Below, piece after piece: positions 3,414-47,222 of a stretch of DNA of 50,427 nt. Both the position numbers and the translations under genes were made by a program. The stretch's first letter is position 1, and each line of letters begins with the position of its first letter. Origin of the DNA: a virus; the IMG/VR virus record IMGVR_UViG_3300009553_000804, positions 1 to 50,427 of that record, one strand, 5' to 3'. The notes beneath the pieces are model-generated. The model made no database searches. It was given only the letters and a program-made list of their open reading frames with translations, and was not told the origin of the DNA.

Positions 3414-3469
3414 ACGGACAGGGTGAGATTCGAACTCACGAAACGGTTGCCCGTTCTCCGGTTTTCGAG
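3414..3469. other. attL: displaced 3' half of tRNA-Ser(CGA)
   Basis: These 56 bases are identical to 47167-47222. They run from the 3' end of the tRNA-Ser(CGA) gene through the T arm and variable arm to the anticodon loop, and then the sequence departs into phage DNA (CTCTG instead of ACCGG). This is the original host 3' half, left as a pseudogene fragment after integration. The strand-exchange point should lie within the repeat, probably at the anticodon stem-loop, as in many tRNA-targeting integrases. Confidence 0.92.
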
Positions 3470-3745: not shown

Positions 3746-4057
3746 ATGAGAACCCCAACCATGGAAGCCGCGGGCTCTACCCCCCGGCTTCTCCCGCACC
3801 ATCCGCACATTGCGACCTCGCGGCGCAATGCCGAGCGGCTCACAAAGTTATACCCAACGCACCGCGAGCGCATCCTCGCGCACCTCCGCATCCACGGCGC
3901 CTACGGTTCGACTCGCGCGGAGCTCGCATTCGACCTCGGCCTCAAGATTCAGTCCGTGTGTCCGATTGTGTTCAGGCTCCGCGAACAGCGGGAGCTCATC
4001 GAGACGGATCGCCAGCGCGATGGCGGCTACGTGCTCGTGGCGGTGGACAATGCGTAG
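3746..4057 (+). CDS. Winged-helix-like DNA-binding protein
   Basis: A 103-residue basic protein. The segment RERILAHLRIHGAYGSTRAE (about 42-61) followed by LAFDLGLKIQSVCPIVFRL resembles a winged helix that recognises DNA by helix 3, and is followed by an EL-I wing. It is the first gene of the left early operon and is preceded by AACCCAAG plus AAAAGG, a form of the leader motif seen before many genes here. It overlaps the next gene by eight bases. It could be an early regulator or a replication accessory factor; the exact role is unknown. Confidence 0.7.
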   Translation: MRTPTMEAAGSTPRLLPHHPHIATSRRNAERLTKLYPTHRERILAHLRIHGAYGSTRAELAFDLGLKIQSVCPIVFRLREQRELIETDRQRDGGYVLVAVDNA

Positions 4058-4325
4058 GCCCACCCCGCTGGACGGCCCTGAGATTGTCGCCGCGATTGCC
4101 GAAGGCCACACGCTTCGCGGGCGCCGCAATGGCTCGGCGCTCACCTTCACCTTCGACATGCTGGATAAGGACTCCGGGCGCACGATGCCCGTGGAGCATA
4201 CCGCCGTGGTGCTGTTGCAAACGCGGCGCCTCGTGCGACTCGTGACCGCGGACGGGTGGCAGACCGTTACCGGCACGCTCACAGATGAGGGGAAGGCGAT
4301 GGTGGCGGAGGTGCTCAATGCCTAA
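4050..4325 (+). CDS. Hypothetical phage early protein
   Basis: A 91-residue protein starting at the ATG that overlaps the end of the previous gene (ATGCGTAG), a sign of translational coupling. It begins MRRPTPLDGPEIVAAI. It has alternating strand-like segments (TFTFDML, TAVVLL, VRLVTADGW) and no recognised motif. It overlaps its downstream neighbour in the same way. Family unknown. Confidence 0.6.
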   Translation: MRRPTPLDGPEIVAAIAEGHTLRGRRNGSALTFTFDMLDKDSGRTMPVEHTAVVLLQTRRLVRLVTADGWQTVTGTLTDEGKAMVAEVLNA

Positions 4326-4563
4326 GTCATCCGGCTTCGAGCTCACGGCGGAAGGCCGCGCGGCCCTCGCGAACGGAACGAGCATCCCCGAGCGCCTCGA
4401 TGCGCTCGCCCGTGCCTTCTCGGAGCTCTCCGCGCGCACGATCCGCTACTACTCCAACGGCCAACACGCTGTAGCGATGCAGCTCATGGCCGAGCTCCGC
4501 GATGAGCTCGTGGAAATCACGTGCGACGTGCGAACGGTGCTCGGGGTGAGTATCGATGACTGA
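4318..4563 (+). CDS. Hypothetical phage early protein
   Basis: An 81-residue, mostly helical protein starting MPKSSGFELTAEG at the ATG that overlaps the previous stop. The helical run IPERLDALARAFSELSART followed by AVAMQLMAELRDELVEI suggests a small helical bundle or a dimer. It overlaps the DUF1376 gene by eight bases (ATGACTGA). Function unknown; coupling to the replication genes is the only clue. Confidence 0.6.
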   Translation: MPKSSGFELTAEGRAALANGTSIPERLDALARAFSELSARTIRYYSNGQHAVAMQLMAELRDELVEITCDVRTVLGVSIDD

Positions 4564-5464
4564 GCGGAGCCAACCCGAGCTCCCCTTCCCCGCCATGCCG
4601 CTCTACGTCCGTGATTGGATGGCGGGTCGTGCGGTTCGGTTGATGACGCCCGAGCAGCGCGGCGCCTTCATCCAGCTCCTGTGTGATGCGTGGGCGGACC
4701 CCTCCGAGCCGTGCACGCTCCCCGATGACGATGCGGAACTCGCCATCCTCTCCGGGCTGGGGGAGCGATGGGAGACCGCGGGCGCCAAGGTGCGCGCGCA
4801 ATTCGAGCCCACCGAGTCCGGGCGCCTTCGCAACCCGAAGCAATGGACCGTTTACACGGGGCTCGTGGAGTATCGCTCCAAGCAGAGTGAGGCCGGAAAG
4901 GCCGGGATGCGCGCCCGTTGGGGCGCAAAGGACAATGGAGAGCCAGCGCCAGAGGCCAATGACCACTCGGCGGACTTTCTCCGTGCGTGGGAGCTCTACC
5001 CCAAGCGCTTTGGCGGCAACGCGAAGAAGCCCGCCCACAAGGCGTGGGTGGCACGTCTCCGCGAGGGCGTGAGCGAGGATGAGCTCATCATCGCCACCAC
5101 CAACTACGCGGCGCACATCCGCGCGACGGGCAAGGACTCCACCGAGTACGTAATGCAAGCCGCCACCTTCTACGGGCCTAACGAGCGGTGGCGTGACTAC
5201 CTCGAAGCACCAGCGCACGGCGGCGGAACATCGCCATCCGTGGAGCGGTGGGAGCTCTACAAAAAGCACGAGCTCACCACGCTTGAGGGTGGAGACTACA
5301 CCGCGCGCATCGCGGAGGCCGTAAAGGCCGGGGTGTGGCCAACCGAGGAGGACGCCAAGCGAGAGCTCCAAGCGGTTCGACCATGGGACATCGCGGCGAA
5401 GGCTCGCTCAACCCAATGGGCCGCTGAGGAAGTGGCCAAGCGTCTCCGGGCGGTGGCCTCGTGA
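4556..5464 (+). CDS. DUF1376-type replication protein
   Basis: A 302-residue protein. The first 110 residues match the DUF1376 (YdaU-like) pattern: MPLYVRDWMAG, then LMTPEQRGAFIQLLCDAW, then an R-NPKQW segment and a YRSKQSEAGKAGMRARWG tail. Proteins of this kind in phages are usually replication initiators or helicase loaders and lie before dnaB or dnaC homologues, as here. The C-terminal half carries a second helical domain (AHKAWVARLREGV). It overlaps both neighbours by a few bases, so it is part of one translationally coupled operon with the helicase. Confidence 0.75.
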   Translation: MTERSQPELPFPAMPLYVRDWMAGRAVRLMTPEQRGAFIQLLCDAWADPSEPCTLPDDDAELAILSGLGERWETAGAKVRAQFEPTESGRLRNPKQWTVYTGLVEYRSKQSEAGKAGMRARWGAKDNGEPAPEANDHSADFLRAWELYPKRFGGNAKKPAHKAWVARLREGVSEDELIIATTNYAAHIRATGKDSTEYVMQAATFYGPNERWRDYLEAPAHGGGTSPSVERWELYKKHELTTLEGGDYTARIAEAVKAGVWPTEEDAKRELQAVRPWDIAAKARSTQWAAEEVAKRLRAVAS

Positions 5465-6117
5465 GCCTCCGCCTTCTAGACCTCTATTGCAAGGCGGGTG
5501 GCGCGGGCCGCGGATACGCAGATGCGGGCTTCGAGGTGGTTGGCGTAGACCTTGAGCCACAACCCAACTACCCCTTTCGATTTATTCAGGGTGACGCGCT
5601 GGCCTACCTCGATGAGGTGCTCGCCAGCGGTCACGACTTCGACGCCATCCACGCGAGTCCGCCATGTCAGGCGTTCACCGCCTACAAGCGGCGCCCGGGC
5701 CACGTTCGCCCGCGACTCGACCTTATCGCCCCAACCCGCGAGCGTCTCCGCGCTACCGGCGCCCCCTACATCATCGAAAACGTCGAAGGGGCGCCACTCC
5801 TCAACGCGGTGCGTGTGTGTGGCTCCGCCTTCGGGCTCGATGTGCGGCGGCATCGCTATTTCGAGTCCAACATCCCGCTCGTGGGCACGCCGTGTAACCA
5901 CGGGTGGCAGACCGCGCGCTTTCCGCAAGCCACCAACCGCGCCAATAAGAGGCGCACCGTGGAAGTGGGCGCGTGGCGCACCTCGCACCTCGCGGCGGAC
6001 GCTATGGGGATAGACTGGATGACCCTCGATGAAATCACCGAGGCAATCCCGCCCCTCTATACGCAATGGCTCGGGCGCCAGCTCCACGCCTACATCCGCG
6101 CGCGGAGGGCAGCGTGA
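5461..6117 (+). CDS. Phage cytosine-C5 DNA methyltransferase-like protein
   Basis: A 218-residue SAM-dependent methylase of the Dcm fold. Motif I is LDLYCKAGGAGRGY (about 5-18), motif IV with the catalytic Cys is SPPCQAF (about 66-72), motif VI is ENVEGA, and the motif VIII region is RRHRYFES. The protein is shorter than restriction-type C5 methylases (over 300) and has little room for a target recognition domain, as in a common group of short phage methylases. The start is GTG overlapping the previous stop (GTGA). It would modify phage DNA or protect it from host enzymes; its target is not readable from sequence. Confidence 0.8.
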   Translation: MSLRLLDLYCKAGGAGRGYADAGFEVVGVDLEPQPNYPFRFIQGDALAYLDEVLASGHDFDAIHASPPCQAFTAYKRRPGHVRPRLDLIAPTRERLRATGAPYIIENVEGAPLLNAVRVCGSAFGLDVRRHRYFESNIPLVGTPCNHGWQTARFPQATNRANKRRTVEVGAWRTSHLAADAMGIDWMTLDEITEAIPPLYTQWLGRQLHAYIRARRAA

Positions 6118-7445
6118 GCCGCGAGCTAGACCTCCCCTATTCCCTTGAGACCGAGACGGCGGTGCTTGCCGCGTGTCTCATGGAGGAGGACGCCTTTACG
6201 GTGGCCTCGGCCATCCTCCACGAGGAGCATTTCCACATCGAGCGCCACCGCGCGGTGTGGCGCGCCTACACGGCGCTCCGCTCCACGGGCGAAGTGTTGG
6301 ACCCGCTCACGCTCCACGATGCGGCCAAGCGGGCGGGCGAGGCGGAGAAGATACCAAAGGAGTACATCGGGGAGCTCCTCGATGCTGTCCCCACCGCCGT
6401 CAATGTCGGGTACCACTCCAAGATTGTCCGCGAGTACGCGGAGCGCCGCGCGCTCATTGCCGCCGCGCGCCAGCTCGAAGCCGCGGCGCGCGAAGGGAAG
6501 GAGAAGGCCGTGGCCATCGCCGCGACTGTCGCCGGGGAGCTCACGCGCGTGGCCGCGGTCACCTCCAAGCGAGGCTTCCGCGCGGCGGGTGAGCACGTGT
6601 GGAAAGTGATGGCGGACATCGAGGCCCGCGCGAACGGGAAAGCGCCTCCGGGTATCCGCACGGGCTACGCGGCCATCGATGAGCACGTGGGCGGCTTCCG
6701 CGGAGGAGACCTCATCATCCTCGCGGGCGTCCCCGGCTCGGGCAAGACGGCGCTCGGCGTCTGCGTCCTCCTTAACGCCGCGCTCGACTACGGCGTAGAG
6801 GGCGCGATGGTGAGCGCTGAGATGACCTCCACCGCGCTCGTGGAGCGGTGCCTTTCCAATTTGGCCTTCATCGAGTCCGGCGCGCTCCGCAAGGGGCGCT
6901 TGGATAATGACGAGTGGCGGCGCCTCACCGAGGCGGGCGCCACGCTCGCCAAGCTCCCCTTCCACATCGATGACACGCCGCGCCCGGACGTGGGCGAAGT
7001 GTGCGCGCGGCTCCGACACCTCAAGTCAAAACACCCCGCGCTCAAGGTGGCGGTGGTGGACTTCATCCAGCTTATCCGCTCGAAGGACGATGAGATGATC
7101 GCGCTCGCACTTACGAACATCTCCTATGAGCTCAAGGGCGTAGCCAAGGAGCTAGACATCGCAGTTATCGCCACGTGCCAAGTGGACGCCTCGGCGGTGG
7201 AGAAGAGCGAGACGCCGCGCCCGCAGCTCCACCACCTCCGGTGGAGTCAGGGGATGCGCGAGGCCGCGGACTTCGTTGGGCTCGTGTATCGCCCGAAGGT
7301 CTACAACCCGATGGCGGAGGACAACATCGAGGTGTCTTTCCCGAAGGCGCGAGACCTCCCGACGTTCACCGCAACCCTTCGGTGGGTGGGTAAGTACATG
7401 CGCGCCGAGGACCACCCGGACCATCTCACCGGGAGGGCCGCGTAA
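6114..7445 (+). CDS. dnaB: Replicative DNA helicase, DnaB-like
   Basis: A 443-residue hexameric helicase that unwinds the fork for phage replication. The N-terminal DnaB domain (ETETAVLAACLMEEDAF) is followed by the RecA-like core with Walker A GVPGSGKT at about 204-211 and Walker B VAVVDFIQLI at about 312-321. The C-terminal GMREAADFVGLVYRP segment matches DnaB motif 4. The GTG at 6114 is chosen because it overlaps the upstream TGA (GTGA) and gives the standard N-terminus SRELDLPYSLETE. The DUF1376 protein upstream is the likely loader or initiator. Confidence 0.93.
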   Translation: MSRELDLPYSLETETAVLAACLMEEDAFTVASAILHEEHFHIERHRAVWRAYTALRSTGEVLDPLTLHDAAKRAGEAEKIPKEYIGELLDAVPTAVNVGYHSKIVREYAERRALIAAARQLEAAAREGKEKAVAIAATVAGELTRVAAVTSKRGFRAAGEHVWKVMADIEARANGKAPPGIRTGYAAIDEHVGGFRGGDLIILAGVPGSGKTALGVCVLLNAALDYGVEGAMVSAEMTSTALVERCLSNLAFIESGALRKGRLDNDEWRRLTEAGATLAKLPFHIDDTPRPDVGEVCARLRHLKSKHPALKVAVVDFIQLIRSKDDEMIALALTNISYELKGVAKELDIAVIATCQVDASAVEKSETPRPQLHHLRWSQGMREAADFVGLVYRPKVYNPMAEDNIEVSFPKARDLPTFTATLRWVGKYMRAEDHPDHLTGRAA

Positions 7446-7588
7446 TGGACACTCCCAAGCATTTCCGTAACTGCACGTGGCCCGCGTGCCTCGAAGGGAG
7501 CGCGTGCCATGCCGCGTGTGACCGCCCCATCGTCCCCGCGGAGGCGCCCACCTCGGCGCCCGCCGCGCCCGCGATGGTGGCTCGATGA
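7445..7588 (+). CDS. Small cysteine-rich protein
   Basis: A 47-residue frame that starts with an ATG overlapping the helicase stop (TAATG) and ends in an ATGA overlap with the nuclease gene, so it fits the operon without gaps. CTWPACLEGSACHAACD holds four Cys with a metal-binding spacing, followed by an Ala/Pro-rich tail. Function unknown; it may be a small zinc-binding adapter. Confidence 0.55.
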   Translation: MDTPKHFRNCTWPACLEGSACHAACDRPIVPAEAPTSAPAAPAMVAR

Positions 7589-8088
7589 ACGGGTGCCCGA
7601 TGAAGTGCGGCCCCGCCTCGGTGTGCGCGCAGCTCGCGAAGTGCCGCATTGTGAAGATGGAGAAGCCCGCGCGCTCGGAGCGCATCGCGAAGGTGGCGCG
7701 CGTGCCGCTGGAACACCACGAGCAACGCGCCCTCTTCTCGTGGGCGAGAGTCACCAAGAAAGCGCTCCCCGAGCTCGGAGAGATGTTTGCCGTGCCGAAC
7801 GGCGCACGGACGGCGATGAGCGTAGCCAAGCGCCTCAAGGCCGAAGGACTCAAGAAGGGAGTGGAGGATGTGATGCTCCTCGTGGCTCGCGGTGGATACC
7901 ACGGGCTTCTTATCGAGATGAAGCGTGTAAACGGCGTGGATTCCGATGTGAGCGATGAGCAACGCGAGTGGCACGACATCCACCGCGCGCGCGGCTTCTT
8001 GGTGGTGGTGTGCAACGGCGCGGAGGAAGCCAAGGCCGTGCTCCTCTCCTACCTCTCGCAAGAGCCAACGCGGGTGGTGCGCCGATGA
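7585..8088 (+). CDS. VRR-NUC domain nuclease
   Basis: A 167-residue protein with the VRR-NUC fold of the PD-(D/E)XK superfamily: EHHEQRALFSWAR (about 46-58), FAVPNGARTA, GLKKGVEDVMLLVARGGYHGL, the catalytic IEMKR, then EQREWHDIHRARGF. Stand-alone phage versions are regarded as Holliday-junction or other structure-specific endonucleases and would resolve recombination or replication intermediates before packaging. The Cys-rich start (MNGCPMKCGP...CAQLAKC) resembles a small zinc knuckle. ATGA overlaps couple it to both neighbours. Confidence 0.88.
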   Translation: MNGCPMKCGPASVCAQLAKCRIVKMEKPARSERIAKVARVPLEHHEQRALFSWARVTKKALPELGEMFAVPNGARTAMSVAKRLKAEGLKKGVEDVMLLVARGGYHGLLIEMKRVNGVDSDVSDEQREWHDIHRARGFLVVVCNGAEEAKAVLLSYLSQEPTRVVRR

Positions 8089-8426
8089 GCCTTGTGGCCA
8101 GTGGCGGACACCGCAAGCTCACGGTGCGGCGCGTCCACGATGTCCCGGCGCGCGCGCTCGTGTGTCCCGCGGGACACAAGCACAAGGCGCAACCTCACCT
8201 CCTCGGCCCCGTGGGCGTGTGTTGCTCATTTCGACCACCTCCGGGGGACGCGGGCGTGTGCGGAGTGTGCGCCGCCTACCTCCCCCTCACAGATGGAAAG
8301 GTGCGCGTGGTGGAGTGCACCTCCGCGGAGCTCATCGAGATGGGTGAGCTCAGGATGGATGCCGAGGCCATGGCTCAATACCTCGGCGTGGCGTTACCTC
8401 TTGCGGGCCAGCCCGCGCGAACATAA
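8085..8426 (+). CDS. Cys/His-rich hypothetical protein
   Basis: A 113-residue protein beginning MSLVASGGHRKLT at the ATG overlapping the previous stop. Cys and His pairs (CPAGHKHK, CC, CGVCAAY) suggest a zinc ribbon, followed by a helical C-terminus (ELIEMGELRMDAEAMAQYLG). Last gene of the coupled run that starts at 3746; a perfect hairpin follows at once. Function unknown. Confidence 0.55.
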   Translation: MSLVASGGHRKLTVRRVHDVPARALVCPAGHKHKAQPHLLGPVGVCCSFRPPPGDAGVCGVCAAYLPLTDGKVRVVECTSAELIEMGELRMDAEAMAQYLGVALPLAGQPART

Positions 8427-8431
8427 AATGT

Positions 8432-8463
8432 GTCTCACGGGCTCATACCGGAACCCGTGAGAC
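8432..8463. terminator. Perfect 10-bp hairpin between early gene blocks
   Basis: GTCTCACGGG (8432-8441) and CCCGTGAGAC (8454-8463) enclose a 12-nt loop. There is no T tract, so it may attenuate transcription, mark an RNA processing site or act as a DNA operator. The 3' arm CCCGTGAGACAA is also found at the leftward promoter near 20.35 kb, which favours a regulatory role. Confidence 0.5.
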
Positions 8464-8487
8464 AACAACCCAAGGAGAGAAACAACT

Positions 8488-8859
8488 ATGTTGGGCTCAC
8501 CAAGAAGTCTAAGGAAGCGGATGGCCCGCTTCCTCGCTCCCGCGGTCTCCGCGGCGGGTGCAGCAGTAGGCGCGGGGCTCGCCAAGCTCCCGGCATCAAA
8601 GAGGGCCGCAGCGAAAGAGCACGAGAAGGTTCGCCGCCTCAGCGCGTTGGCGCGATTCCTCCGCCTCCCGCGATGGTACCAAGACGCGCTTCGCCCCAAC
8701 TTCCGCAGACGCCGCAGTAACATCGGCCTTCACGGCAACCGGCCCACCAACCCCGTAGTAGTCGCTCGCGTGATTCAGCGCGCGAAGGACAAGCGCGCGC
8801 GCCGCGCCGCTCGCAACCTCCGCCTGTTTGGACTTCCAGCCAAGGCGGTGGCCGCTTGA
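8488..8859 (+). CDS. Very basic hypothetical protein
   Basis: A 123-residue protein, rich in Arg and Lys, preceded by the full leader AACCCAAGGAG (8467-8477). An early Ala/Gly-rich hydrophobic stretch (FLAPAVSAAGAAVGAGLA) is followed by repeated basic runs (RFLRLPRWYQDALRPNFRRR, RAKDKRARRAARNLR). It could bind nucleic acid or a membrane surface. Its stop overlaps the next start. No family recognised. Confidence 0.6.
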   Translation: MLGSPRSLRKRMARFLAPAVSAAGAAVGAGLAKLPASKRAAAKEHEKVRRLSALARFLRLPRWYQDALRPNFRRRRSNIGLHGNRPTNPVVVARVIQRAKDKRARRAARNLRLFGLPAKAVAA

Positions 8860-9071
8860 CCACCATCATCGCCATCCTCCTCCTCCTCGTGCTCGTGGCG
8901 CTCGGGGGAGTGGGAGGCAAGCTCAAGGAGCTCCTCGGAGAGCTCCTTCGCATCCGCATCGCCGCGGAGCGCCTCGCCATCAACAGCAACAAAGCCACCC
9001 CGCTCGTGGAGGAGCTCACGAACCTCGCCGCCCGCGCCTCGTACCGCACCAGCAAAGGAGCCACGCGATGA
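8856..9071 (+). CDS. Small single-span membrane protein
   Basis: A 71-residue protein with TTG start overlapping the previous stop (TTGA). Residues 3-19 (TIIAILLLLVLVALGGV) form one membrane span, followed by an amphipathic helix (LKELLGELLRIRIAAERLA). It ends in ATGA overlap with the next membrane-anchored protein, so the two are probably made together. Role unknown. Confidence 0.55.
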   Translation: MTTIIAILLLLVLVALGGVGGKLKELLGELLRIRIAAERLAINSNKATPLVEELTNLAARASYRTSKGATR

Positions 9072-9571
9072 TTTCCACCGCTATCTACATCTCGGGCGGT
9101 CTCCTCGCCGCGGGATTCTTTGCTGTCGCCGCGGCCTTTGTCTACTCTGCCGTGACGTTTAACCGCCGCATGTCCGAGTCCGGGGAGCGCGAGGAGCACA
9201 CCGCCACGTGGCTCATGGGGCTCGCACGTGGAGCAGGAAGCGCGGGACTCAACGCGCTCGCGGATGAAGCGTTCCGCATCGCGGAGCTCGCGGGGTGGCA
9301 CGATACGCCGCGCGACCCGGGGCTCATCATCGCCCTCATCCACTCCGAGCTCTCGGAAGCGCTCGAAGAGTGGCGGAAGGGCATGCCACTCACCACTACG
9401 TACTTCGGTGAGAACGGCAAGCCCGAGGGATACGCCATCGAGCTCGCGGACGCGCTCATCCGCATCTTCGACCACGCCGCGACGGAAGGCATCGACCTTC
9501 ACGAGGCCGTCCTCACCAAGATGGCCTTCAACGCCTCGCGCCCGTACCGTCATGGCGGTAAGGTCGCATGA
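9068..9571 (+). CDS. Membrane-anchored MazG-like nucleotide pyrophosphohydrolase
   Basis: A 167-residue protein. Residues 5-31 form an N-terminal membrane span (AIYISGGLLAAGFFAVAAAF). The rest resembles the all-alpha NTP pyrophosphohydrolases (MazG/dUTPase-2-like): LIHSELSEALEEWRKG supplies the acidic metal-binding helix and IELADALIRIFDHA the second one. Such phage enzymes hydrolyse nucleotides and may change dNTP or alarmone levels. The fusion to a membrane span is unusual. The ATG at 9068 overlaps the previous TGA. Confidence 0.7.
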   Translation: MISTAIYISGGLLAAGFFAVAAAFVYSAVTFNRRMSESGEREEHTATWLMGLARGAGSAGLNALADEAFRIAELAGWHDTPRDPGLIIALIHSELSEALEEWRKGMPLTTTYFGENGKPEGYAIELADALIRIFDHAATEGIDLHEAVLTKMAFNASRPYRHGGKVA

Positions 9572-9747
9572 CGCGTTCCGAGAAGTTTCTCGCGTGGCTC
9601 GTGCGGCTCCTCCCTCGATACCTCGTGTATTGGTGCGGGGTTCGTATGATCGCAGAGACCGCAATGGACATGCCCGAGCGCGATGTGCACTCACTCGGCG
9701 CCGTTGAGGCGCTCAAGCACTACCACAAGAAGGCGGGTGCACTTTGA
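9568..9747 (+). CDS. Small hypothetical protein
   Basis: A 59-residue protein starting MTRSEKFLAWLVRLLPRYLV. Its first half is an amphipathic or weakly hydrophobic helix containing YWCGVRMI, which may lie on the membrane. It is linked by ATGA and TTGA overlaps to both neighbours, which is the main evidence that it is real. Function unknown. Confidence 0.5.
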   Translation: MTRSEKFLAWLVRLLPRYLVYWCGVRMIAETAMDMPERDVHSLGAVEALKHYHKKAGAL

Positions 9748-10130
9748 GCGACACCAAGCGCACGGCGCCAACAGCCGCAGCCACCGAGTACGAGACTGAT
9801 GCGCGCGTGTTTTTCATCGAGGAGGGCGGTGAGTGTTTCCACTACGCCGCCACCTCGGCATCGGGCGCACTCCATGAGCACGAGGGGTGCGGCCTCTATG
9901 AGGATGGCTTCGAGGAAGTCACTATCCGGGAGCTCAAGGCCGATGCCGTACTAACCATCAAGCTCGTGGATGGCGAAGAAGGCGCGGAGGACATGGGCCC
10001 TGAGTACGCCGTGGGAATGACGGGCAGCACGCCCATCCTCACCACCACGTGCGCGCAATGGGCGAAAGACTCAAATGCGGAGAACCTTGTGGATGGAGGC
10101 GCAATCCAGCTTGGGAGCAGCGTCTACTAG
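9744..10130 (+). CDS. Acidic hypothetical protein
   Basis: A 128-residue acidic protein with TTG start overlapping the previous stop. EYETDARVFFIEEGGECFHYA and EHEGCGLYEDGFEEV suggest a beta-rich domain. Last gene before the structured intergenic region and the terminase genes. No family recognised. Confidence 0.55.
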   Translation: MSDTKRTAPTAAATEYETDARVFFIEEGGECFHYAATSASGALHEHEGCGLYEDGFEEVTIRELKADAVLTIKLVDGEEGAEDMGPEYAVGMTGSTPILTTTCAQWAKDSNAENLVDGGAIQLGSSVY

Positions 10131-16947: not shown

Positions 16948-17763
16948 CTACGCCGCGTCATCCTGCATCACCGGCTCCGCGTCCGGGAGCTCCAACCCGT
17001 AGCGCTTGGCCTCTCTCTCCATCTCGCGCCTATCGTCCACCTTCGGCACGACGACAGGCTTGAGGTGGCGCGCCCATCGAATCTTGCGGCACGTGGGAGC
17101 CTTGTCTGTGCGCTTGCGCGCGCCTCGATTCCAGCTTTGCGCGCGTGTGGTGTGCTCGGGTTTCCAGCGCGCGTAACGGAGCGACGTGCCCGCTTCCGTC
17201 TCAAGGGTGTACGTGATGACCTTCTCGAAGCCGCGGCGCTCGGCTTCCTTGGCGGCGGCGGTGTAGAGCATGGAGCACGCTTTCCACGTGAGCTCAGAAT
17301 CAAGCTCGTGGTTGACGCAAAGGCGATTCACCTCCACCACCTTAGAGGCGTCAATCATGCGTGCGACGGGGCGCCCAACCATAGCCACCGCGATGAGCTC
17401 GTGGCCGTTGTAGACCGCGTGACCCCACCGCCACGAGACGGGCGGCGCGTTGTGTCGATGGTGCTCACCGATGAACGCCTTTGCCTCCACAAGAGAGATG
17501 TCTCTCAGCTCCAAGCCGAAGTCCACGCGGAGCGCCATCTCGCTCTCGCTCGCGTAGACGCGGCGGATGGGATAGCCGTAGTCCGCGAAGAGCTCACGGA
17601 CCCACTCACGGGCGCCTTCGAGGTCGCGCGCAAGCATCTCGCAAAGCTCCTCGTGCGCCGCCTCGCAGCACGCATCGAACATCCACGCGCGCTCCTCGGT
17701 CCAAAATTCCAAGAGGTCCACGATGTACTCGTCGCCACAAAACGCGCACAGTTCGCCAGACAC
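16948..17763 (-). CDS. GNAT-fold protein of the XF1762/Mom-like group
   Basis: A 271-residue protein. The last 180 residues match the XF1762-like GNAT group found in phages: AKAFIGEHHRHNAPPVSWRWGHAV, then VGRPVARMID, VVEVNRLCVN, ACSMLYTAAAKEAERRGFEKVITYTL and GTSLRYARW. The fold is related to Mom, which modifies adenine in phage DNA. The first 80 residues are extra, with a possible zinc site (CAFCGDEY, FDACCEAAHEELC). The GTG at 17763 is preferred because GGGAGG lies six bases upstream; an ATG at 17808 overlaps the operator. Possible role in DNA hypermodification. Confidence 0.72.
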   Translation of the reverse strand: MSGELCAFCGDEYIVDLLEFWTEERAWMFDACCEAAHEELCEMLARDLEGAREWVRELFADYGYPIRRVYASESEMALRVDFGLELRDISLVEAKAFIGEHHRHNAPPVSWRWGHAVYNGHELIAVAMVGRPVARMIDASKVVEVNRLCVNHELDSELTWKACSMLYTAAAKEAERRGFEKVITYTLETEAGTSLRYARWKPEHTTRAQSWNRGARKRTDKAPTCRKIRWARHLKPVVVPKVDDRREMEREAKRYGLELPDAEPVMQDDAA

Positions 17764-17790
17764 GATAGCCTCCCAAGTGATTGGCCTAAA

Positions 17791-17805
17791 GACACAAATT
17801 GTGTC
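17791..17805. promoter_or_regulatory. Operator palindrome GACACA-AAT-TGTGTC
   Basis: A perfect 6+3+6 palindrome in the leader of the GNAT gene, 28 bases before its start codon. It belongs to the GACAAT-N3-ATTGTC series, with two bases changed in each half symmetrically, which keeps the palindrome. Probable repressor site. Confidence 0.55.
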
Positions 17806-17820
17806 CATAAGGCACCAAGG

Positions 17821-17849
17821 AAGCTAGACAAATGACATGTAAACGGCAA
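17821..17849 (-). promoter_or_regulatory. Leftward promoter for the GNAT gene
   Basis: On the minus strand TTGCCG (17849-17844), a 17-bp spacer and TAGCTT (17826-17821). The -35 overlaps the end of a hairpin, and GGGGCTTGNCGTTTACA is shared with the promoter at 20389. The -10 is a weak match. Confidence 0.45.
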
Positions 17850-17883
17850 GCCCCATAGACATTAAGATTGTCTACGGGGCTTG
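17847..17883. terminator. 15-bp hairpin with an operator at its tip
   Basis: CAAGCCCCATAGACA (17847-17861) pairs with TGTCTACGGGGCTTG (17869-17883), with one wobble position. The apical part forms GACATT-AAG-ATTGTC (17858-17872), one mismatch from the operator consensus. It follows the zinc-ribbon gene on the leftward strand and runs into the next leftward -35. The TGTCTACGGGGCT part is repeated at 22439-22451. Confidence 0.65.
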
Positions 17884-17908
17884 TATCATTTCGTTCCTGG
17901 CAAAGCGC

Positions 17909-18079
17909 CTAGAACACGCCGAGCGCCACGCACATCGCCAGCGCCACGGCTATGCCCATGAGCACCATCCCGCGGACTCGCGCGCGCTCCGTTGCGGCGT
18001 TGGGCTCGCCGCACTTCGGACACGCCACCGCGGCATCGGACACGAGCTCGCGGCACGCGGAGCATCGGGTGAGCGGCAT
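17909..18079 (-). CDS. Zinc-ribbon membrane protein
   Basis: A 56-residue protein starting MPLTRCSACRELVSDAAVACPKCGEP. Two CxxC pairs make a zinc ribbon, and the C-terminal 20 residues (GMVLMGIAVALAMCVALGVF) form a membrane span. The start is chosen because it gives the ribbon at the very N-terminus and follows the lipoprotein stop by two bases. Probably cotranscribed with that lipoprotein. The role is unknown; surface location of both suggests a membrane-associated lysogen function. Confidence 0.65.
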   Translation of the reverse strand: MPLTRCSACRELVSDAAVACPKCGEPNAATERARVRGMVLMGIAVALAMCVALGVF

Positions 18080-18081
18080 GG

Positions 18082-18924
18082 CTACGGCTCGGCTTCCAGC
18101 GTCACCGCGCCGCGCGCTGTCCTCCACTCCACATCGCACCACGTCCCGCCCGTATACGTGAGCGGCGACTCCGAGGCCTTCACCGCGGGCCACTCATCGA
18201 TACCTGTGGCCGGATTGTTCGACCCCACCGAGAGGATGAGCGAGTCCGGCGCTTGACGCGCCACCACTTGGTGGTTCGTGATGGTCACAGTGTCAACGGT
18301 CCCATTGCGGAGGAAGCGCACCTCCGGCCCTGTCCACCACACTTGGGCTACGCCCCCGAAGTTCGGCACGAAGCTCTCATCGCCCGGGTACACCACGGAA
18401 TCCACCGCCACGTGGTCAAACGTCGCGGAGTCAATCGGGATGTTCTCCGTCGTGATGAACGTTCCGCCCGCACAGCTCCACGAGGCACGCCACGCGAAGC
18501 CGCGAAGGTCTACGCCCGCGGTGGCCGTAAGCGAGTCCGTGGGCGCGAGTGAGTCCGCTGCCACGATTGAGGCATCCGCACTCACGAGCGAGCCTGACGC
18601 GCCCGTGCTCGCGGCAAAGCGGATGATACCGCGCTTCTCCGCACTCGGGGCGATGATCGTGTCGCCCGAGACCGTCCACCCGCTCGGCACCGTGACCGCG
18701 AGGTGTGCGCCCGTCACCACGTTTCCATGGTCATCGAGCACGCGCGACACGAGCGCCGACGCGGGCACCTTCGAGCCCGTGAAGAGCAGCGCATCGCCCG
18801 CCTTGAGCTCCACATGGAGCGCGCCAGCCGGGGGCGGCGGGGGCGGCGGCGGCGCAACGATGCCGTGGTCACCACCACACGCCGAAAGGACCATCGCGGT
18901 AAGGAGAATCATCGAGCGCTTCAT
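18082..18924 (-). CDS. Prophage-encoded lipoprotein with Ig-like domain
   Basis: A 280-residue exported protein. MKRSMILLTAMVLSAC is a lipoprotein signal with lipobox Cys16. A run of Pro (about 25-32) acts as a spacer, followed by an Ig-like/invasin-type domain (VPASALVSRVLDDHGNVVTGAHLAVTVPSG) and a beta-rich C-terminus. TTGGAGG precedes the ATG by eight bases. It has its own promoter and a terminator just before it, so it can be expressed from the silent prophage. Candidate lysogenic conversion or superinfection exclusion factor; its style resembles lipoproteins of the presumed host group. Confidence 0.7.
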   Translation of the reverse strand: MKRSMILLTAMVLSACGGDHGIVAPPPPPPPPAGALHVELKAGDALLFTGSKVPASALVSRVLDDHGNVVTGAHLAVTVPSGWTVSGDTIIAPSAEKRGIIRFAASTGASGSLVSADASIVAADSLAPTDSLTATAGVDLRGFAWRASWSCAGGTFITTENIPIDSATFDHVAVDSVVYPGDESFVPNFGGVAQVWWTGPEVRFLRNGTVDTVTITNHQVVARQAPDSLILSVGSNNPATGIDEWPAVKASESPLTYTGGTWCDVEWRTARGAVTLEAEP

Positions 18925-18956
18925 TTCGTGCCCTCCAAGGGCGTAGGGGAGTCCAT

Positions 18957-18993
18957 CGTATCGAACGATACGCTACGAGAAAAACGATTGCAA
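18957..18993 (-). promoter_or_regulatory. Lipoprotein promoter with a second type of palindrome
   Basis: Minus strand: TTGCAA (18993-18988), a 17-bp spacer and TATCGT (18970-18965). The palindrome CGTATCG-AA-CGATACG (18957-18972) covers the -10. It is unrelated to the GACAAT operator, so a different regulator, perhaps of host origin, may control the gene. Confidence 0.55.
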
Positions 18994-19025
18994 GCCCCGG
19001 AGGCAACTTTTCACGCCTCCGGGGC
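18994..19025 (-). terminator. Terminator of the SprT operon
   Basis: GCCCCGGAGGC (18994-19004) and GCCTCCGGGGC (19015-19025) form a perfect 11-bp stem with a 10-nt loop. It lies 21 bases after the leftward gene ending at 19047 and leads straight into the lipoprotein -35 region, as in other hairpin-promoter units of this phage. Confidence 0.65.
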
Positions 19026-19046
19026 CTTAGAGCGTGTTAATGTGTG

Positions 19047-19466
19047 TTAATCTGTGCCAGCTACGAAACGCTCATAAACGACGCGGTACACGCTGGGGCC
19101 GTGGGAGACCGAGGAGCGTATGCTGTTGTGCCAGTTGAGCGCATCCTCCCATCGGGCTAGCCACCCGTCCACCTCGTGCATCGCGCACGCGGCGCGGGCG
19201 CGCAGCTCGCGCGACTCCCAATTGCCAGCCGCCACCTCCACCTCCACCACCTTGTGCTCGCGCACCTTCCCCACGAGCTCCATCCCTCGGAGCGTGAAGG
19301 CCACAGGTAAGTCCCCCTGCCCCGTGATGGCGAGGGCAAAGTCCTTCATGCTCAGGCTCGCATCGAGGAAGTGAACGCCCGAGTTCTCATCTACGAGCTC
19401 GATGCGGATGTGCGCGTGTTCACCGCCGCCGCTCACGCGGCTAATGCTCAATCTCCCATTACGCAC
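19047..19466 (-). CDS. Hypothetical protein
   Basis: A 139-residue protein with GTG start overlapping the stop of the SprT-like gene. First half beta-rich (GRLSISRV, AHIRIELVDENSGVHFLDASLSMKDFALAITGQG), second half helical with many aromatic residues (MHEVDGWLARWEDALNWHNSI). Last gene of the leftward operon starting at 20309. No family recognised. Confidence 0.6.
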   Translation of the reverse strand: MRNGRLSISRVSGGGEHAHIRIELVDENSGVHFLDASLSMKDFALAITGQGDLPVAFTLRGMELVGKVREHKVVEVEVAAGNWESRELRARAACAMHEVDGWLARWEDALNWHNSIRSSVSHGPSVYRVVYERFVAGTD

Positions 19467-20064
19467 CTTTCACCTCCTCCTCCATCGGCTCCGAATTGCA
19501 CGGGCACAACGGCGCGCCCGTCTCATCGAGCCACTTGCGCGTGGTACGCGCGGTGTAGCCACACGCGGGACAGACCACCTTGAGCTGTCGCGTGGCTTGC
19601 TTCTTCACCGGCCCTTTGGTGACATCGAGCGCCGCGTGCGGGTACGGCCCGAGCGCTTCCACCACCGGCTTGGCCCACGCCATGAAGGCCTCGCCCGCCA
19701 CGGTGGCCGTGGCTTTCCCTTCGAGCCCGAGCGCGTGAGCAGCGCGCGCGAACGGCGCCTTGTGTCCGTGCTCGGTGCCTACTGCCGCGTGAGCCAGCTC
19801 GTGCGCGAGCACGTCCGCCACGCGCATCGGGTCCGCGAGAACCGGCGAGATGAAGAGCTCCGTAGCACCATCCGCGGAACACACGGGCGCGAAACACTGG
19901 CCAATGGCGCGGTTGCCCTTCGCGTCTGACAGCGCGTTGCGACACGGCCATCCCGCGCTCACGCGGAGCTTCTCGGGAATCGCGTAGCCCAACGCGGTGA
20001 AGGTTGGGCGCATCGCGTCCGCGAGTGCCGCGAGCCATGACTCGCGGGTGGTGTGGGTGGCCAT
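19459..20064 (-). CDS. SprT-like zinc metallopeptidase
   Basis: A 201-residue protein with the SprT/Spartan pattern. The active site is HELAH (His88, Glu89, His92) followed by EHGHKAPFARAAHALGLEGK, where His101 is the likely third ligand. The C-terminus carries a zinc ribbon (CPACGYTARTTRKW...CPC). Eukaryotic Spartan digests proteins crosslinked to DNA; phage SprT-like proteins may clear such blocks during replication, which is inference. The start MATHTTRESW at 20064 is preferred over longer options, which lack family-like sequence. Confidence 0.85.
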   Translation of the reverse strand: MATHTTRESWLAALADAMRPTFTALGYAIPEKLRVSAGWPCRNALSDAKGNRAIGQCFAPVCSADGATELFISPVLADPMRVADVLAHELAHAAVGTEHGHKAPFARAAHALGLEGKATATVAGEAFMAWAKPVVEALGPYPHAALDVTKGPVKKQATRQLKVVCPACGYTARTTRKWLDETGAPLCPCNSEPMEEEVKGA

Positions 20065-20066
20065 AG

Positions 20067-20309
20067 TTAGAGCGCCTCCGCGGGCACGAGGGGCGCGCCG
20101 ATGACCGCGCGAAACGGGACATCGTATTCCGCCATGGCATTGGAGCGCGCACGCTCCACGGCCTCCGCTTGGTCTGTATGGAACCCGTGCGCCATCGGCA
20201 ACGCGCCCTCTTCGGCGGTCACATCGTAGACCGTAGCGTGCCAGAGGCGCGCATCCCGAGCCCGCTTCACCCCCACCTTCACCTCTCCCCAAAACATCGG
20301 CTTTGGCAT
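20067..20309 (-). CDS. Hypothetical protein
   Basis: An 80-residue protein, MPKPMFWGEVKVGVKRARD at the start, with an AAGGAG site nine bases upstream. It looks like a small alpha/beta fold: WHATVYDVTAEEG, HGFHTDQAEAVERARSNAMAEYD, then FRAVIGAPLV. First gene after the promoter at 20361-20389. Function unknown. Confidence 0.65.
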   Translation of the reverse strand: MPKPMFWGEVKVGVKRARDARLWHATVYDVTAEEGALPMAHGFHTDQAEAVERARSNAMAEYDVPFRAVIGAPLVPAEAL

Positions 20310-20360
20310 CTCCCACTCCTTGCTTATTGTCCAATGAGCCGCGGTATCGGCCCGTGAGAC

Positions 20361-20389
20361 AATAATAGGGCGCTCGCGTGTAAACGTCA
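20361..20389 (-). promoter_or_regulatory. Leftward promoter of the SprT operon
   Basis: Minus strand: TTGACG (20389-20384), a 17-bp spacer and TATTAT (20366-20361), then TGTCTC. This is the best leftward sigma-70 match in the island. The half operator GACAAT (20357-20362) overlaps the -10. The start codon lies about 50 bases downstream. Confidence 0.7.
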
Positions 20390-20423
20390 AGCCCCTCGGC
20401 CACATGAGGTGACCGAGGGGCTT
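20387..20423. terminator. 12-bp hairpin overlapping the -35 element
   Basis: CAAGCCCCTCGG (20387-20398) and CCGAGGGGCTTG (20412-20423) with a 13-nt loop. It lies between the Gp157-like gene and the SprT operon, and its left edge is part of the TTGACG of the next promoter. Confidence 0.65.
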
Positions 20424-20442
20424 GAGCGTGAGCAATGCCGCG

Positions 20443-21123
20443 TTAGACGATGCGGAGGTGCTCCTTTTGCTCCACGGTGACGCCGCGGGGGACGCCATAC
20501 TCCTCCACGAGCGCTACGCGCACCGTCGCCAACCACTCCGCGAGGCGCTCATCGAAGTCCTCCTCTCCCGGCTTCGGGCGCGCGCCCACTTCCGCCACCG
20601 CGAGCTTGTAGGCATCGCGGAGCGCATCCGCGGGGAGCTCGTGCGAGACGCGCTCCACCGTGAAGATGCAGCCGTCCTTGTGGAGCGCCGCGAGTTGTTC
20701 CGGGGAAAGCTCATGCTTGACACTCGCCCCGCTCAACTGACGGCGGACATCCACGAGCTCGCCCTCCACCTTCGGGCGGTTGAGCCGCGCGAGGTTGCGG
20801 CGCATGTACTCCTTGAGTCCCGCCGCGGCGCTCTCGATGGAGCTCGCGCGCGCGGAGTGAGGAGCCGCCACCGCGTTGATGGCCTTCGCCGTCGCACGCT
20901 GCACCTCGGCGGTGGCGAGGAGCTCCCGAACGTAGAGCGCCACGCGCTCCATCTTGGTGGCGAAGTCTCCCTCCGCCTTGTCCGCGAGCTCCGCGAGCTC
21001 GGGCACCGCGTCCAAGTCACCGCCCGCGGCAATGAGCTTCTCCGCGTTCTCCGGTTCGTCCATCCACTCGCGGATAGTCAAGAGTTGGTCCGTCGCATCG
21101 TAGAGCTTCATTACTGTTGCCAT
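20443..21123 (-). CDS. Siphovirus Gp157-like protein
   Basis: A 226-residue protein of the Gp157 family. MATVMKLYDATDQLLTIREWM, then FATKMERVALYVRELLATAEV, a long coiled region ending KEYMRRNLARLNRPKVEGEL, and a C-terminal FDERLAEWL helix. Family members lie beside recombinases or replication genes in many siphoviruses, and a resistance role against other phages was suggested for a Streptococcus member. Start chosen at the ATG with AAGGGA upstream. The much longer frame reading further upstream overlaps four genes and is rejected. Confidence 0.8.
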   Translation of the reverse strand: MATVMKLYDATDQLLTIREWMDEPENAEKLIAAGGDLDAVPELAELADKAEGDFATKMERVALYVRELLATAEVQRATAKAINAVAAPHSARASSIESAAAGLKEYMRRNLARLNRPKVEGELVDVRRQLSGASVKHELSPEQLAALHKDGCIFTVERVSHELPADALRDAYKLAVAEVGARPKPGEEDFDERLAEWLATVRVALVEEYGVPRGVTVEQKEHLRIV

Positions 21124-21124
21124 G

Positions 21125-21397
21125 TTAGTAGTCCCTTGAGTTGTGATTGCGTGCTTCACGTGCGGCCAGTTTGACGAGCTCCACTTCCTCCTCATCTGTG
21201 AGCTCATGGCCCTTCGAGCAGCGCGGTCCGATGGTGCACACGTAGTAGAAGCCATCCCTCCACTCACCGCGGTTGCCATCCGCGTCCGCCCCGTACCACT
21301 CTCCTCGCTCGTAGCCCAACGCGACATCCACATCGGCCTCGCACGTATCGCCGTCCTCGCATGCGCGCGGGCACGCCAGCGTAATGGTTTCCGCCAT
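21125..21397 (-). CDS. Acidic zinc-finger-like protein
   Basis: A 90-residue protein with AAGGAGGG before the ATG. CPRACEDGDTC and CTIGPRCSKGH supply Cys/His pairs consistent with a zinc site. The C-terminal EEEVELVKLAAREA is a helix. It ends one base before the Gp157-like start. Function unknown. Confidence 0.65.
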   Translation of the reverse strand: MAETITLACPRACEDGDTCEADVDVALGYERGEWYGADADGNRGEWRDGFYYVCTIGPRCSKGHELTDEEEVELVKLAAREARNHNSRDY

Positions 21398-21398
21398 T

Positions 21399-21548
21399 TC
21401 ACCCTCCTTGGGCGAGCGACATCGCCCGAGCGATGAGGGCGCGCAACCCGCGGACGCACCGATGGCACGCGCGCACCTTCCAGCCTTTCACGGGACGCCC
21501 GCACTCGGGGCAGCGGAGCGCGTGGTGCCGGTTTGACGCGCGGCGCAT
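21399..21548 (-). CDS. Small zinc-ribbon protein
   Basis: A 49-residue basic protein, MRRASNRHHALRCPECGRPV then ACHRCVRGLRALIARAM. Two CxxC pairs form a ribbon. Its ATG overlaps the stop of the next gene upstream (ATGA), and its stop is near the start of the following gene. Probably a nucleic-acid or protein-binding adapter. Confidence 0.55.
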   Translation of the reverse strand: MRRASNRHHALRCPECGRPVKGWKVRACHRCVRGLRALIARAMSLAQGG

Positions 21549-21796
21549 CAGAGGAGCCCCCGACGCACGCGGCGCACCGGCTTCTTTTCCGCGATGAGCG
21601 CATCCGCCGCGAGCATCTCCGCCGAGCGGAGCACGCGCTCCCACGGAACAGGGCCGTACTCGGTGCGCTTCCCCTTCTCGCGGAGGTAAACGCCCTCAGA
21701 AGCAAAGCGCGCGATGTATCGCGTCACCGTATCGCGGCGGTAGTCTCGCACCAACACCTCGCGCGTGACCGCGCTCTTCTCGATGGTGGTCGCCAT
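21548..21796 (-). CDS. Basic DNA-binding-like protein
   Basis: An 82-residue protein. REVLVRDYRRDTVTRYIARFASEGVYLREKGKR looks like a helix-turn-helix with a wing (a TVTRYIARF recognition helix), followed by VLRSAEMLAADALIAEKK and an Arg-rich tail. It may be a small regulator of the leftward operon. The assignment rests on pattern only. Confidence 0.55.
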   Translation of the reverse strand: MATTIEKSAVTREVLVRDYRRDTVTRYIARFASEGVYLREKGKRTEYGPVPWERVLRSAEMLAADALIAEKKPVRRVRRGLL

Positions 21797-21797
21797 G

Positions 21798-21986
21798 TCA
21801 GGCCACCATCAAGCATGTTGGTGGCTCCGCGAGCGCGAGCGCATTGCGGACGCGCACATCAACCGCGTGGAGGCACGCCCGATACTCCTCGGGCGTTGTG
21901 GCGGTGGCCATACCCATCTCGATAATCGCCAGCGCGTTTCGGAGATGCTCCCCGATGGGCTCCTCCTCGATTGGGCGCTCACACAT
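21798..21986 (-). CDS. Small hypothetical protein
   Basis: A 62-residue helical protein, MCERPIEEEPIGEHLRNALA, with a second helix YRACLHAVDVRVRNALALA. It overlaps the upstream gene by eight bases. No family recognised. Confidence 0.5.
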   Translation of the reverse strand: MCERPIEEEPIGEHLRNALAIIEMGMATATTPEEYRACLHAVDVRVRNALALAEPPTCLMVA

Positions 21987-22254
21987 GCGCCACCTCCCCG
22001 AACGGGATAAGGCCAGCCATGCGGAGCACGCCCGCCACCTTGGTGCTCGCGAGGACGCGGCGGTTGTAGACCGTCAGCCCATCGGACGCCCGCACCACGC
22101 GCGCGGTCCAACTCACCGTCCCGCGGCTTCGCGCGAAATCGCGCACGCCTTCGTGGCGCTCCATCTCCACGCGATAGCTCTCGCCGTTTACACGCACAGC
22201 GTGAGCGTAGCCATTCGCCAATGGCTCCTTTCGTCCCACATCAACATCCGCCAT
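21979..22254 (-). CDS. Hypothetical protein, first gene of the leftward operon
   Basis: A 91-residue protein preceded by the full leader AACCCAAGGAG (minus strand, 22276-22266) and GGAGG close to the ATG. Beta-rich: YAHAVRVNGESYRVEMERHE, TVSWTARVVRASDGLTVYNRRVLAS. It stands about 175 bases downstream of the promoter at 22432-22460. Function unknown. Confidence 0.6.
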   Translation of the reverse strand: MADVDVGRKEPLANGYAHAVRVNGESYRVEMERHEGVRDFARSRGTVSWTARVVRASDGLTVYNRRVLASTKVAGVLRMAGLIPFGEVAHV

Positions 22255-22427: not shown

Positions 22428-22460
22428 GACAATAATGGTGTCTACGGGGCTAAGAAACAA
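22428..22460 (-). promoter_or_regulatory. Leftward promoter with operator palindrome
   Basis: Minus strand: TTGTTT (22460-22455), a 17-bp spacer and CATTAT (22437-22432), followed by TGTCTC as in the promoter at 20361. The operator-like GACAAT-AAT-GGTGTC (22428-22442) covers the -10. Confidence 0.6.
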
Positions 22461-22469
22461 GCCCCGTAG
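22442..22469. terminator. 10-bp hairpin overlapping the leftward -35
   Basis: CTACGGGGCT (22442-22451), an 8-nt loop and AGCCCCGTAG (22460-22469). It shares TGTCTACGGGGCT with the hairpin at 17847-17883. It would stop any leftward read-through before the promoter that it overlaps. Confidence 0.55.
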
Positions 22470-22494
22470 GCCCGAAGCGGACCCGAAAGTATTG

Positions 22495-22578
22495 TAACGA
22501 ACCTCTAACCGAGTGATAACACCGCTATAACGGACACGATAACAGGCCCGACAACGGGCGCGTAACAACCCCCATAAC
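22495..22578 (+). repeat. Eight TAAC-type boxes at 11-12 bp spacing
   Basis: TAAC begins at 22495, 22506, 22517, 22528, 22540, 22563 and 22575, with CAAC at 22552. The steps are 11, 11, 11, 12, 12, 11 and 12 bases, so all boxes lie near one face of the helix. This suggests an array of binding sites for one protein: an activator for the late genes or an iteron-like origin. Confidence 0.7.
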
Positions 22579-22590
22579 GTTTTATAGCTT

Positions 22591-22626
22591 GCATCTGCAT
22601 CTTCATTTGCATCTGCATCTCTCTCT
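22591..22626 (+). repeat. Hexamer tandem repeat GCATCT
   Basis: Six hexamers in a row: GCATCT, GCATCT, TCATTT, GCATCT, GCATCT, CTCTCT. It lies in the leader of the 22641 gene. The pyrimidine-rich end could affect translation or be a slippage-prone element. Confidence 0.55.
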
Positions 22627-22640
22627 ACAAGGGGCGCGCA

Positions 22641-22847
22641 ATGCGTGACCGTGTAAACGAGGAAGGACGCATCGAACGCGCATCGGAGGCGCCGCTCACG
22701 AGTCGCCACGTGGGGTGGTGTCTCATGTGTCGCGGAAGGCTCATCGAAGAGCTCCGTGTCACGGCGCGCCGCGGCGCGCTCGGCTTCACGACGCACACGC
22801 GCATCGCGTGCGCGTGCCGCCAACACGTTCCGCGTGGCGAGGATTAG
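22641..22847 (+). CDS. Small zinc-finger-like protein
   Basis: A 68-residue protein, ATG 11 bases after AAGGGG. CLMCRGRLIEEL and CACRQHVPRGE provide Cys pairs and a His for a possible zinc site. First rightward gene after the control region, so it could be an early-to-late switch protein. A 164-residue frame on the other strand is less likely because it crosses the repeats and the promoter. Confidence 0.5.
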   Translation: MRDRVNEEGRIERASEAPLTSRHVGWCLMCRGRLIEELRVTARRGALGFTTHTRIACACRQHVPRGED

Positions 22848-22929
22848 CGCCATCGCGTAGCTTGCGGCTCGAATCGAAGCGGCGCGCACTGTAGCGGTAG
22901 CGCCAATAATTCACTAGCTGGGACTAAAT

Positions 22930-22997
22930 CCCGGCACTCCCAACCAACGCGCCGCGTCTCTGGCGTTTACGGGTTGTAGCGAGTGCCGGGTTTTTTT
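22930..22997 (+). terminator. Long-loop terminator with T7 tail
   Basis: CCCGGCACTC (22930-22939) and GAGTGCCGGG (22981-22990), a 41-nt loop, then TTTTTTTG. The same long-loop plan as 10222-10297. It stops transcription from the 22641 gene or attenuates entry into the capsid genes. Confidence 0.75.
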
Positions 22998-42101: not shown

Positions 42102-42138
42102 GATGCTCCTCTCGTGCGTGGAAGTCAGCCCATAGGGC

Positions 42139-42167
42139 TTGACACGTTGCCCATTAGACAATACAAT
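42139..42167 (+). promoter_or_regulatory. Main rightward early promoter
   Basis: TTGACA (42139-42144), a 17-bp spacer and TACAAT (42162-42167), the best sigma-70 match in the window. The -10 lies inside the palindrome GACAAT-ACA-ATTGTC, so repressor binding would block it. It drives recombination genes, excisionase and integrase. Confidence 0.8.
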
Positions 42168-42171
42168 TGTC
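42157..42171. promoter_or_regulatory. Primary operator GACAAT-ACA-ATTGTC
   Basis: A perfect 6+3+6 palindrome, extended to 7-bp arms (AGACAAT/ATTGTCT). It lies 55 bases from the repressor start codon and covers the -10 of the rightward promoter. It defines the consensus for the dispersed sites in this prophage. Confidence 0.75.
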
Positions 42172-42341
42172 TTTCAAGCGGGCCGCACGAGTAGCGCGGC
42201 GCCGTTTACGGTGGTGGCGTTGGTCGCATGGGCGCGAGATGTAGCCCATGGGACAACGATACGCCACCCGGAACACGTTGGCGGGTCAAAACCTACGCCT
42301 TGCCAGCGTGTTGGACAACCCCAACCCAAGGAGTACGGCAC

Positions 42342-42380
42342 GTGGTGGGCAAAATTTTACGCCCGGGGGGCCGCGGATGA
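42342..42380 (+). CDS. Possible leader micro-ORF
   Basis: A 12-residue frame (GTG start) with the full leader AACCCAAGGAG (42323-42333) eight bases before it. Its stop overlaps the ATG of the next gene (ATGA). It may couple or regulate translation of that gene. Alternatively the next gene starts further upstream in another frame. Confidence 0.3.
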   Translation: MVGKILRPGGRG

Positions 42381-42580
42381 GCCCCTCACCAGCAAGCCCA
42401 CGTAGGCCGCGATGCGGCGTGTGTGGTGGGCGATTTCTCAAGGGAGAGCCGGTGGACTCGCTCCCCGAGCTTGGCGAGGTGCACGAGGACTGTAGAGCCG
42501 ACATCGAGCGAGCCATCAAGGATGGCGGGTGTGATCCCGATGACTACCTCAAGGTGTTCGGCGCGGCGATGGGGGGCTAA
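42377..42580 (+). CDS. Small zinc-finger protein
   Basis: A 67-residue protein. CGVCGGRFLKGEP, then ELGEVHEDCRADIE supply Cys, Cys, His, Cys for one zinc site, followed by an acidic helix. First recognisable product of the rightward early transcript. An in-frame ATG at 42248 would add 43 residues, but it lacks a ribosome binding site. Confidence 0.6.
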   Translation: MSPSPASPRRPRCGVCGGRFLKGEPVDSLPELGEVHEDCRADIERAIKDGGCDPDDYLKVFGAAMGG

Positions 42581-47166: not shown

Positions 47167-47222
47167 ACGGACAGGGTGAGATTCGAACTCACGAAACGGT
47201 TGCCCGTTCTCCGGTTTTCGAG
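47167..47222. other. attR core
   Basis: The 56-bp phage-supplied copy of the 3' half of tRNA-Ser(CGA), identical to 3414-3469. It completes the tRNA gene, so integration does not destroy it. Confidence 0.92.

Follow-up and report, generated by a model that had tools for sequence, protein, structure and literature searches.

The window analysed here, i.e. the whole stretch of 50,427 nucleotides, is an IMG/VR provirus record (IMGVR_UViG_3300009553_000804) and contains a prophage of a Gemmatimonadota soil bacterium, with attL at 3414 and attR at 47222. The two att sites are identical direct repeats (3414-3469 and 47167-47222) located at the 3' end of tRNA-Ser(CGA), and the prophage that they delimit measures 43.8 kb. 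A tyrosine integrase is encoded at 45940-47115, beside the att repeat, and a Clp ATPase gene on the host side is 76% identical to its counterpart in a Gemmatimonadaceae genome. Replication genes occupy positions 3761-10130 and are followed by terminase, portal and a MuF-like gene up to 16680, a leftward block (16948-22254), an array of short boxes, a gene of 68 amino acids and the scaffold (23025) and capsid (23791) genes. The location of the array between a leftward island and rightward capsid genes, as given in a preliminary description of this DNA, thus holds. The leftward block also includes a Mom-like DNA modification gene (16948-17808). The features of interest are as follows:

4556-5464, plus strand: predicted replication initiator/helicase loader with a DUF1376 N-terminus, a DnaD-like C-terminus and an 18-aa linker between them
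6114-7445, plus strand: DnaB-like replicative helicase, whose loading is expected at the origin
21979-22254, minus strand: first gene of the leftward operon, which ends at 16948 and also comprises Sipho_Gp157, SprT-like and Mom-like genes
22441-22469, no strand assigned: strong hairpin CTACGGGGC-loop-GCCCCGTAG to the left of the array, with a T run on neither side
22491-22519, minus strand: promoter-like site facing left, TTATCA-N17-TACAAT, which shares bases with boxes 1-3
22495-22578, plus strand: iteron-like array, with TAAC at 22495, 22506, 22517, 22528, 22540, 22563 and 22575 and CAAC at 22552
22579-22630, plus strand: candidate unwinding tract of period 6, pyrimidine-rich on the given strand (GCATCT GCATCT TCATTT GCATCT GCATCT CTCTCT)
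22641-22847, plus strand: small gene of 68 aa with Cys motifs, to the right of the tract

The hairpin region at 22441-22469 has a folding energy of -26.7 kcal/mol (z -5.5). A second strong hairpin, followed by T7 and shaped like an intrinsic terminator, is located at 22926-22996, approximately 30 bases 5' of the scaffold gene, and the capsid genes could depend on read-through of this structure.

All eight box coordinates proposed previously were correct on re-examination, and the steps between them are 11, 11, 11, 12, 12, 11 and 12 bases, i.e. 11 or 12 throughout as had been claimed. Conservation is confined to the core, so that the array is not a simple tandem duplication (mean identity of the spacer ends, 0.34). 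The boxes had also been said to stand in helical phase. The regular period was recovered, with a best period equal to the mean step of 11.43 bp (resultant 0.97 at 11.43 vs 0.32 at 10.5 bp per turn); strict phasing was not, since boxes with this mean step drift around a helix of 10.5 bp and wind around it, which makes the term too loose. TAAC is scarce in this 65% G+C window (42 + 31 copies), and the only place where three copies are found at exactly 11 bp is the array (0 expected from 100 dinucleotide shuffles). With one gap bridged and steps of 11-12 bases, the chain comprises seven exact boxes, compared with at most five for any of the 256 4-mers in 100 Markov-3 genomes. Without bridging, a chain of five boxes remains, which was matched in one of 150 simulated genomes, and the score of the array was equalled by no 4-mer across 100 simulated genomes. 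The shuffled-sequence check suggested in the preliminary description has been carried out, and such phased runs are not common in simulated versions of the window. The box array is real. An array of DnaA boxes (TTATCCACA/TGTGGATAA repeats) was ruled out, because the boxes have TAAC alone in common and the preceding bases vary. No turn of the GC skew was seen at this position, and the skew was uninformative.

It may be asked whether the array is simply a functionless, decayed tandem repeat, as perfect 11-bp TAAC tandem repeats were found here in Gemmatimonadota chromosomes. The spacers, however, show no residual identity while the cores are intact, and we consider such a decay extremely unlikely.

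The array is adjoined by a tract that the preliminary description did not mention. The period-6 repeat proper (22590-22625) begins eleven bases 3' of the last box and is the sole non-coding tract of this kind in the window: only two period-6 sites were identified, the second of which (32074) is a coding triplet repeat, and none was observed in 60 simulated genomes. Of all 60-bp windows in the prophage, one of the two richest in A+T is contained in the tract plus the last box. The tract is strand-asymmetric, with 70% pyrimidines on one strand, and has only four TnnT motifs on its TAAC strand. Thus, the array and the tract are each the most prominent feature of their own kind in the window, and they are neighbours.

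One function previously suggested for the array was the binding of a cooperative activator of late genes, here taken to be those of the capsid operon. Its position upstream of the scaffold and capsid genes is consistent with this, as is the presence of TAAC arrays by head morphogenesis, scaffold or protease genes in a few unrelated phages (L014, L140 and L047). We aligned the capsid protein with 80 relatives, of which the nearest two have major capsid proteins 55% and 45% identical to that of this phage; neither has an array ahead of its capsid gene. The nearest (L316) has its MuF-like, scaffold-like and capsid frames in close succession. When whole contigs were searched, an array of at least three boxes was found in none of 47 capsid relatives (0/47), and the capsid protein had no match in 395 Gemmatimonadota genomes. 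The array is therefore no part of the capsid module and belongs either with the inserted leftward block or alone. In addition, the strong terminator-like hairpin separates it from the scaffold gene. The preliminary description had itself named loss in relatives as evidence against its late-gene activator, and we now regard this role as very unlikely.

For the array locus itself, a search for distant DNA similarity in phages returned nothing, the scanned collections contained no diverged relative (a contig with 100% identity is the sole further copy), and viral-contig queries with the capsid, terminase, small gene and Gp157 proteins retrieved the identical contig alone or nothing.

On the other hand, many TAAC arrays with 11-12-bp spacing are present in IMG/VR. 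Some of those with unrelated spacers are embedded in genes for phage replication initiation, namely L165, L190, L156 (phrog_2509), L157 and L124, which prompted a comparison of initiator genes. Others are intergenic, part of them near head genes; in a weak test, 20 contigs whose TAAC arrays are intergenic showed no DUF1376, and these arrays call for a different explanation. Several other arrangements were observed. In the unrelated phages L014, L140 and L047, coding-strand GTAACG arrays that are long and irregular separate or flank MuF-like, scaffold and protease genes. In Gemmatimonadota chromosomes, a gene's TAA stop codon can mark the start of 11-bp TAAC repeats (L301, L302, L303 and L305). 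In three Gemmatimonadota genomes (L298, L299 and L300), a TonB-like gene is preceded by four TAAC boxes spaced 11 bp apart, the spacers of which have diverged; this is possibly a response-regulator site. The idea that the array belongs to a host regulon was rejected, as TAAC arrays in Gemmatimonadota genomes are few (13 matches in eight genomes, while the reversed pattern gave 5) and most of them are perfect tandem repeats.

The initiator of this phage (4556-5464) matches DUF1376 with 26.5 bits, below the cut-off of 30.1, and has a DnaD-like C-terminal match as well; it is 27% identical to the G257 initiator over 358 aligned positions (E 4e-21). Its predicted structure (pLDDT 47) was too poor for use, and a search for the initiator among 19 capsid relatives, which had no positive control, found none. 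For comparison, we collected seven genes: DUF1376 was present in five of the 395 Gemmatimonadota genomes (bins so labelled could include foreign contigs), to which were added L406 from the same phylum sample, with a weak DUF1376 match of 15.6 bits, and Pseudomonas phage phPA-G, placed in the set by alignment. In all seven, the densest 120-bp stretch of 4-mers phased at 10-12 bp starts at codon 96-121. Its density is significant by codon shuffling in each of them (P ≤0.026, vs 0.08-0.96 in eight control genes). The patterns followed in this analysis were picked after inspection of the data; shuffles and control genes were subsequently applied in a uniform manner.

By the same codon shuffling, a period-6 tract was significant in the initiator genes of G317, G303 and L406, and not in those of G257, G024 and G215. 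The G303 gene has TAAG, CAAG and CAAC at exactly 12 bp, followed by a tract that shares 17 identical bases (TGCATCTTCATTTGCAT) with that of the window. In the L406 gene, TAAC boxes spaced 10-11 bp apart precede CATCTT hexamers, and both order and orientation match those of the window. When the window tract was aligned to the G303 and L406 genes, the result surpassed all of 200 codon shuffles, which was not so for other genes. Box cores vary across the DUF1376 initiators (TAAC, AACC, AAACCC, AAAGC and AAGC), so the likeness lies more in layout than in sequence. Among 38 initiator genes of other phages, 14 had a significant period-6 tract, compared with none of 13 controls. Dipeptide repeats (QE, VE, TQ and DT) and serine runs, which are encoded by period-6 DNA, were noted in the linkers of several initiators (L440, L157, L406, L481 and G317).

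The phage's own initiator gene, in contrast, has no phased boxes (densest-window P 0.68 by codon shuffling), and the period-6 tract is also missing from it. Its linker comprises 18 amino acids, compared with 54-65 in six homologues. The shortfall of 36-47 codons corresponds to 108-141 bases, and the array and tract together measure 136 bases. The short linker in the protein and the presence, 17 kb away, of a segment about the size of this shortfall suggest that the origin has moved out of the initiator gene.

Based on these sequence comparisons, we consider that 22495-22630 is probably a phage replication origin of the iteron type, built like that of lambda and located outside the initiator gene. 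Of the two functions offered in the preliminary description, an origin is thus the one favoured by the comparison with seven related initiator genes, and the late activator is the one that is not. We propose that the initiator encoded at 4556-5464 is the cognate protein of the boxes. Several copies of this DUF1376/DnaD-like protein would bind the eight YAAC boxes, and the resulting complex would strain the DNA so that the neighbouring period-6 tract, which is A+T-rich and strand-asymmetric, opens. Helicase recruitment would then fall to the DnaD-like half of the initiator, which would bring in the DnaB-like protein encoded by the phage at 6114-7445. Opening may be aided by transcription that starts at the leftward promoter-like site at boxes 1-3, as in lambda. 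In the course of evolution, the origin would have been lost from the initiator gene and have survived between two operons 17 kb away. Whether it left the gene as a unit, with the protein losing the linker that encoded it, is a proposition for which we see the chances as evenly balanced.

The same promoter-like site raises the question of an operator array, in which a repressor or activator bound cooperatively to the boxes would control the leftward operon; such a role could hold alongside that of an origin. The array lies in the divergent intergenic region before this operon and contains TTATCA-N17-TACAAT, whose -10 hexamer TACAAT also occurs at the promoter on the CI side. However, the only regulator recognized by Pfam among 41 scanned window proteins is the CI-like protein (HTH_31), neither TAAC nor GTTA occurs in the CI promoter region (42102-42451), and an operator accounts neither for the period-6 tract nor for the 17 bases that the tract shares with an initiator gene. 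We therefore consider an operator array unlikely on balance, and a role of the boxes as CI operators was rejected given the absence of TAAC from 42102-42451. On the side of the CI-like gene, 42139-42175 contains a TTGACA-N17-TACAAT promoter and the palindrome AGACAAT-ACA-ATTGTCT, which is likely a lysogeny operator.

A centromere-like partition site was also considered. The parC site of R1-type ParMRC also has 11-bp direct repeats, and both the repeat period and the overlap with a promoter resemble parC. No ParM, ParR, ParA or ParB family was named among the scanned window proteins, and the prophage sits integrated in the chromosome at a tRNA gene, which makes partition unnecessary. Such a site is hardly credible here.

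If the origin assignment is correct, it provides a rule for finding origins in uncultured phages, namely boxes phased at 10-12 bp followed by a period-6 tract, most often concealed as dipeptide repeats within the initiator linker. This phage would then be a natural experiment that separates the role of the linker for DNA from its role for the protein. If the origin left as a unit, the repeat-rich linkers of many phage initiators would be explained by their DNA sequence rather than by a role in the protein. The assignment would also offer a testable origin for Gemmatimonadota phages, for which no origin was found described in the literature searched.

Among known systems, the closest is the lambda origin, in which iterons and an A+T-rich strand-asymmetric tract lie within gene O (PMC4488673, PMC7466680) and which requires transcription in or near the origin (PMC5043065). 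The window resembles lambda and lambdoid phages in having repeated sites, here presumed to be those of the initiator, beside an A+T-rich asymmetric tract, and a predicted phage-coded initiator that would recruit the helicase (PMC4488673, PMC7466680). Where a lambda-type origin has at least four repeated sites in a close array, the window has eight boxes whose use by the initiator is putative, and the adjoining tract is present; location inside the initiator gene is a trait that it lacks. The differences are that lambda has four to six 19-bp iterons instead of eight 4-base cores at 11-12 bp, that its origin lies in gene O and not 17 kb from the initiator gene, and that the initiator family is another. 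The putative origins in DUF1376 initiator genes of Gemmatimonadota prophages (G303, L406, G257, G317, G024 and G215) share boxes phased at 10-12 bp and homologous initiator N-termini with this phage, and the hexamer tract of G303 and L406 is also closely similar to that of the window and runs in the same orientation; these origins lie in the linker-coding stretch, whereas the one described here is intergenic, and their box cores are mostly different. Initiation genes of the phrog_2509 type and related ones (L165, L190, L156, L032, L157 and L124) likewise have a TAAC core at 11-12 bp, but inside the gene and with other N-terminal domain families. The unwinding region of Bacillus subtilis oriC (DnaA-trios/DnaD recognition element, PMC10201434) also has a short-period tract beside initiator boxes, although its boxes and initiator are different and the window tract has so few TnnT motifs; by analogy with it, the DnaD-like domain of the phage initiator may read single-stranded DNA. 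Taken together, the array and tract are best read as a variant of the lambda-type origin rather than as a new type of system.
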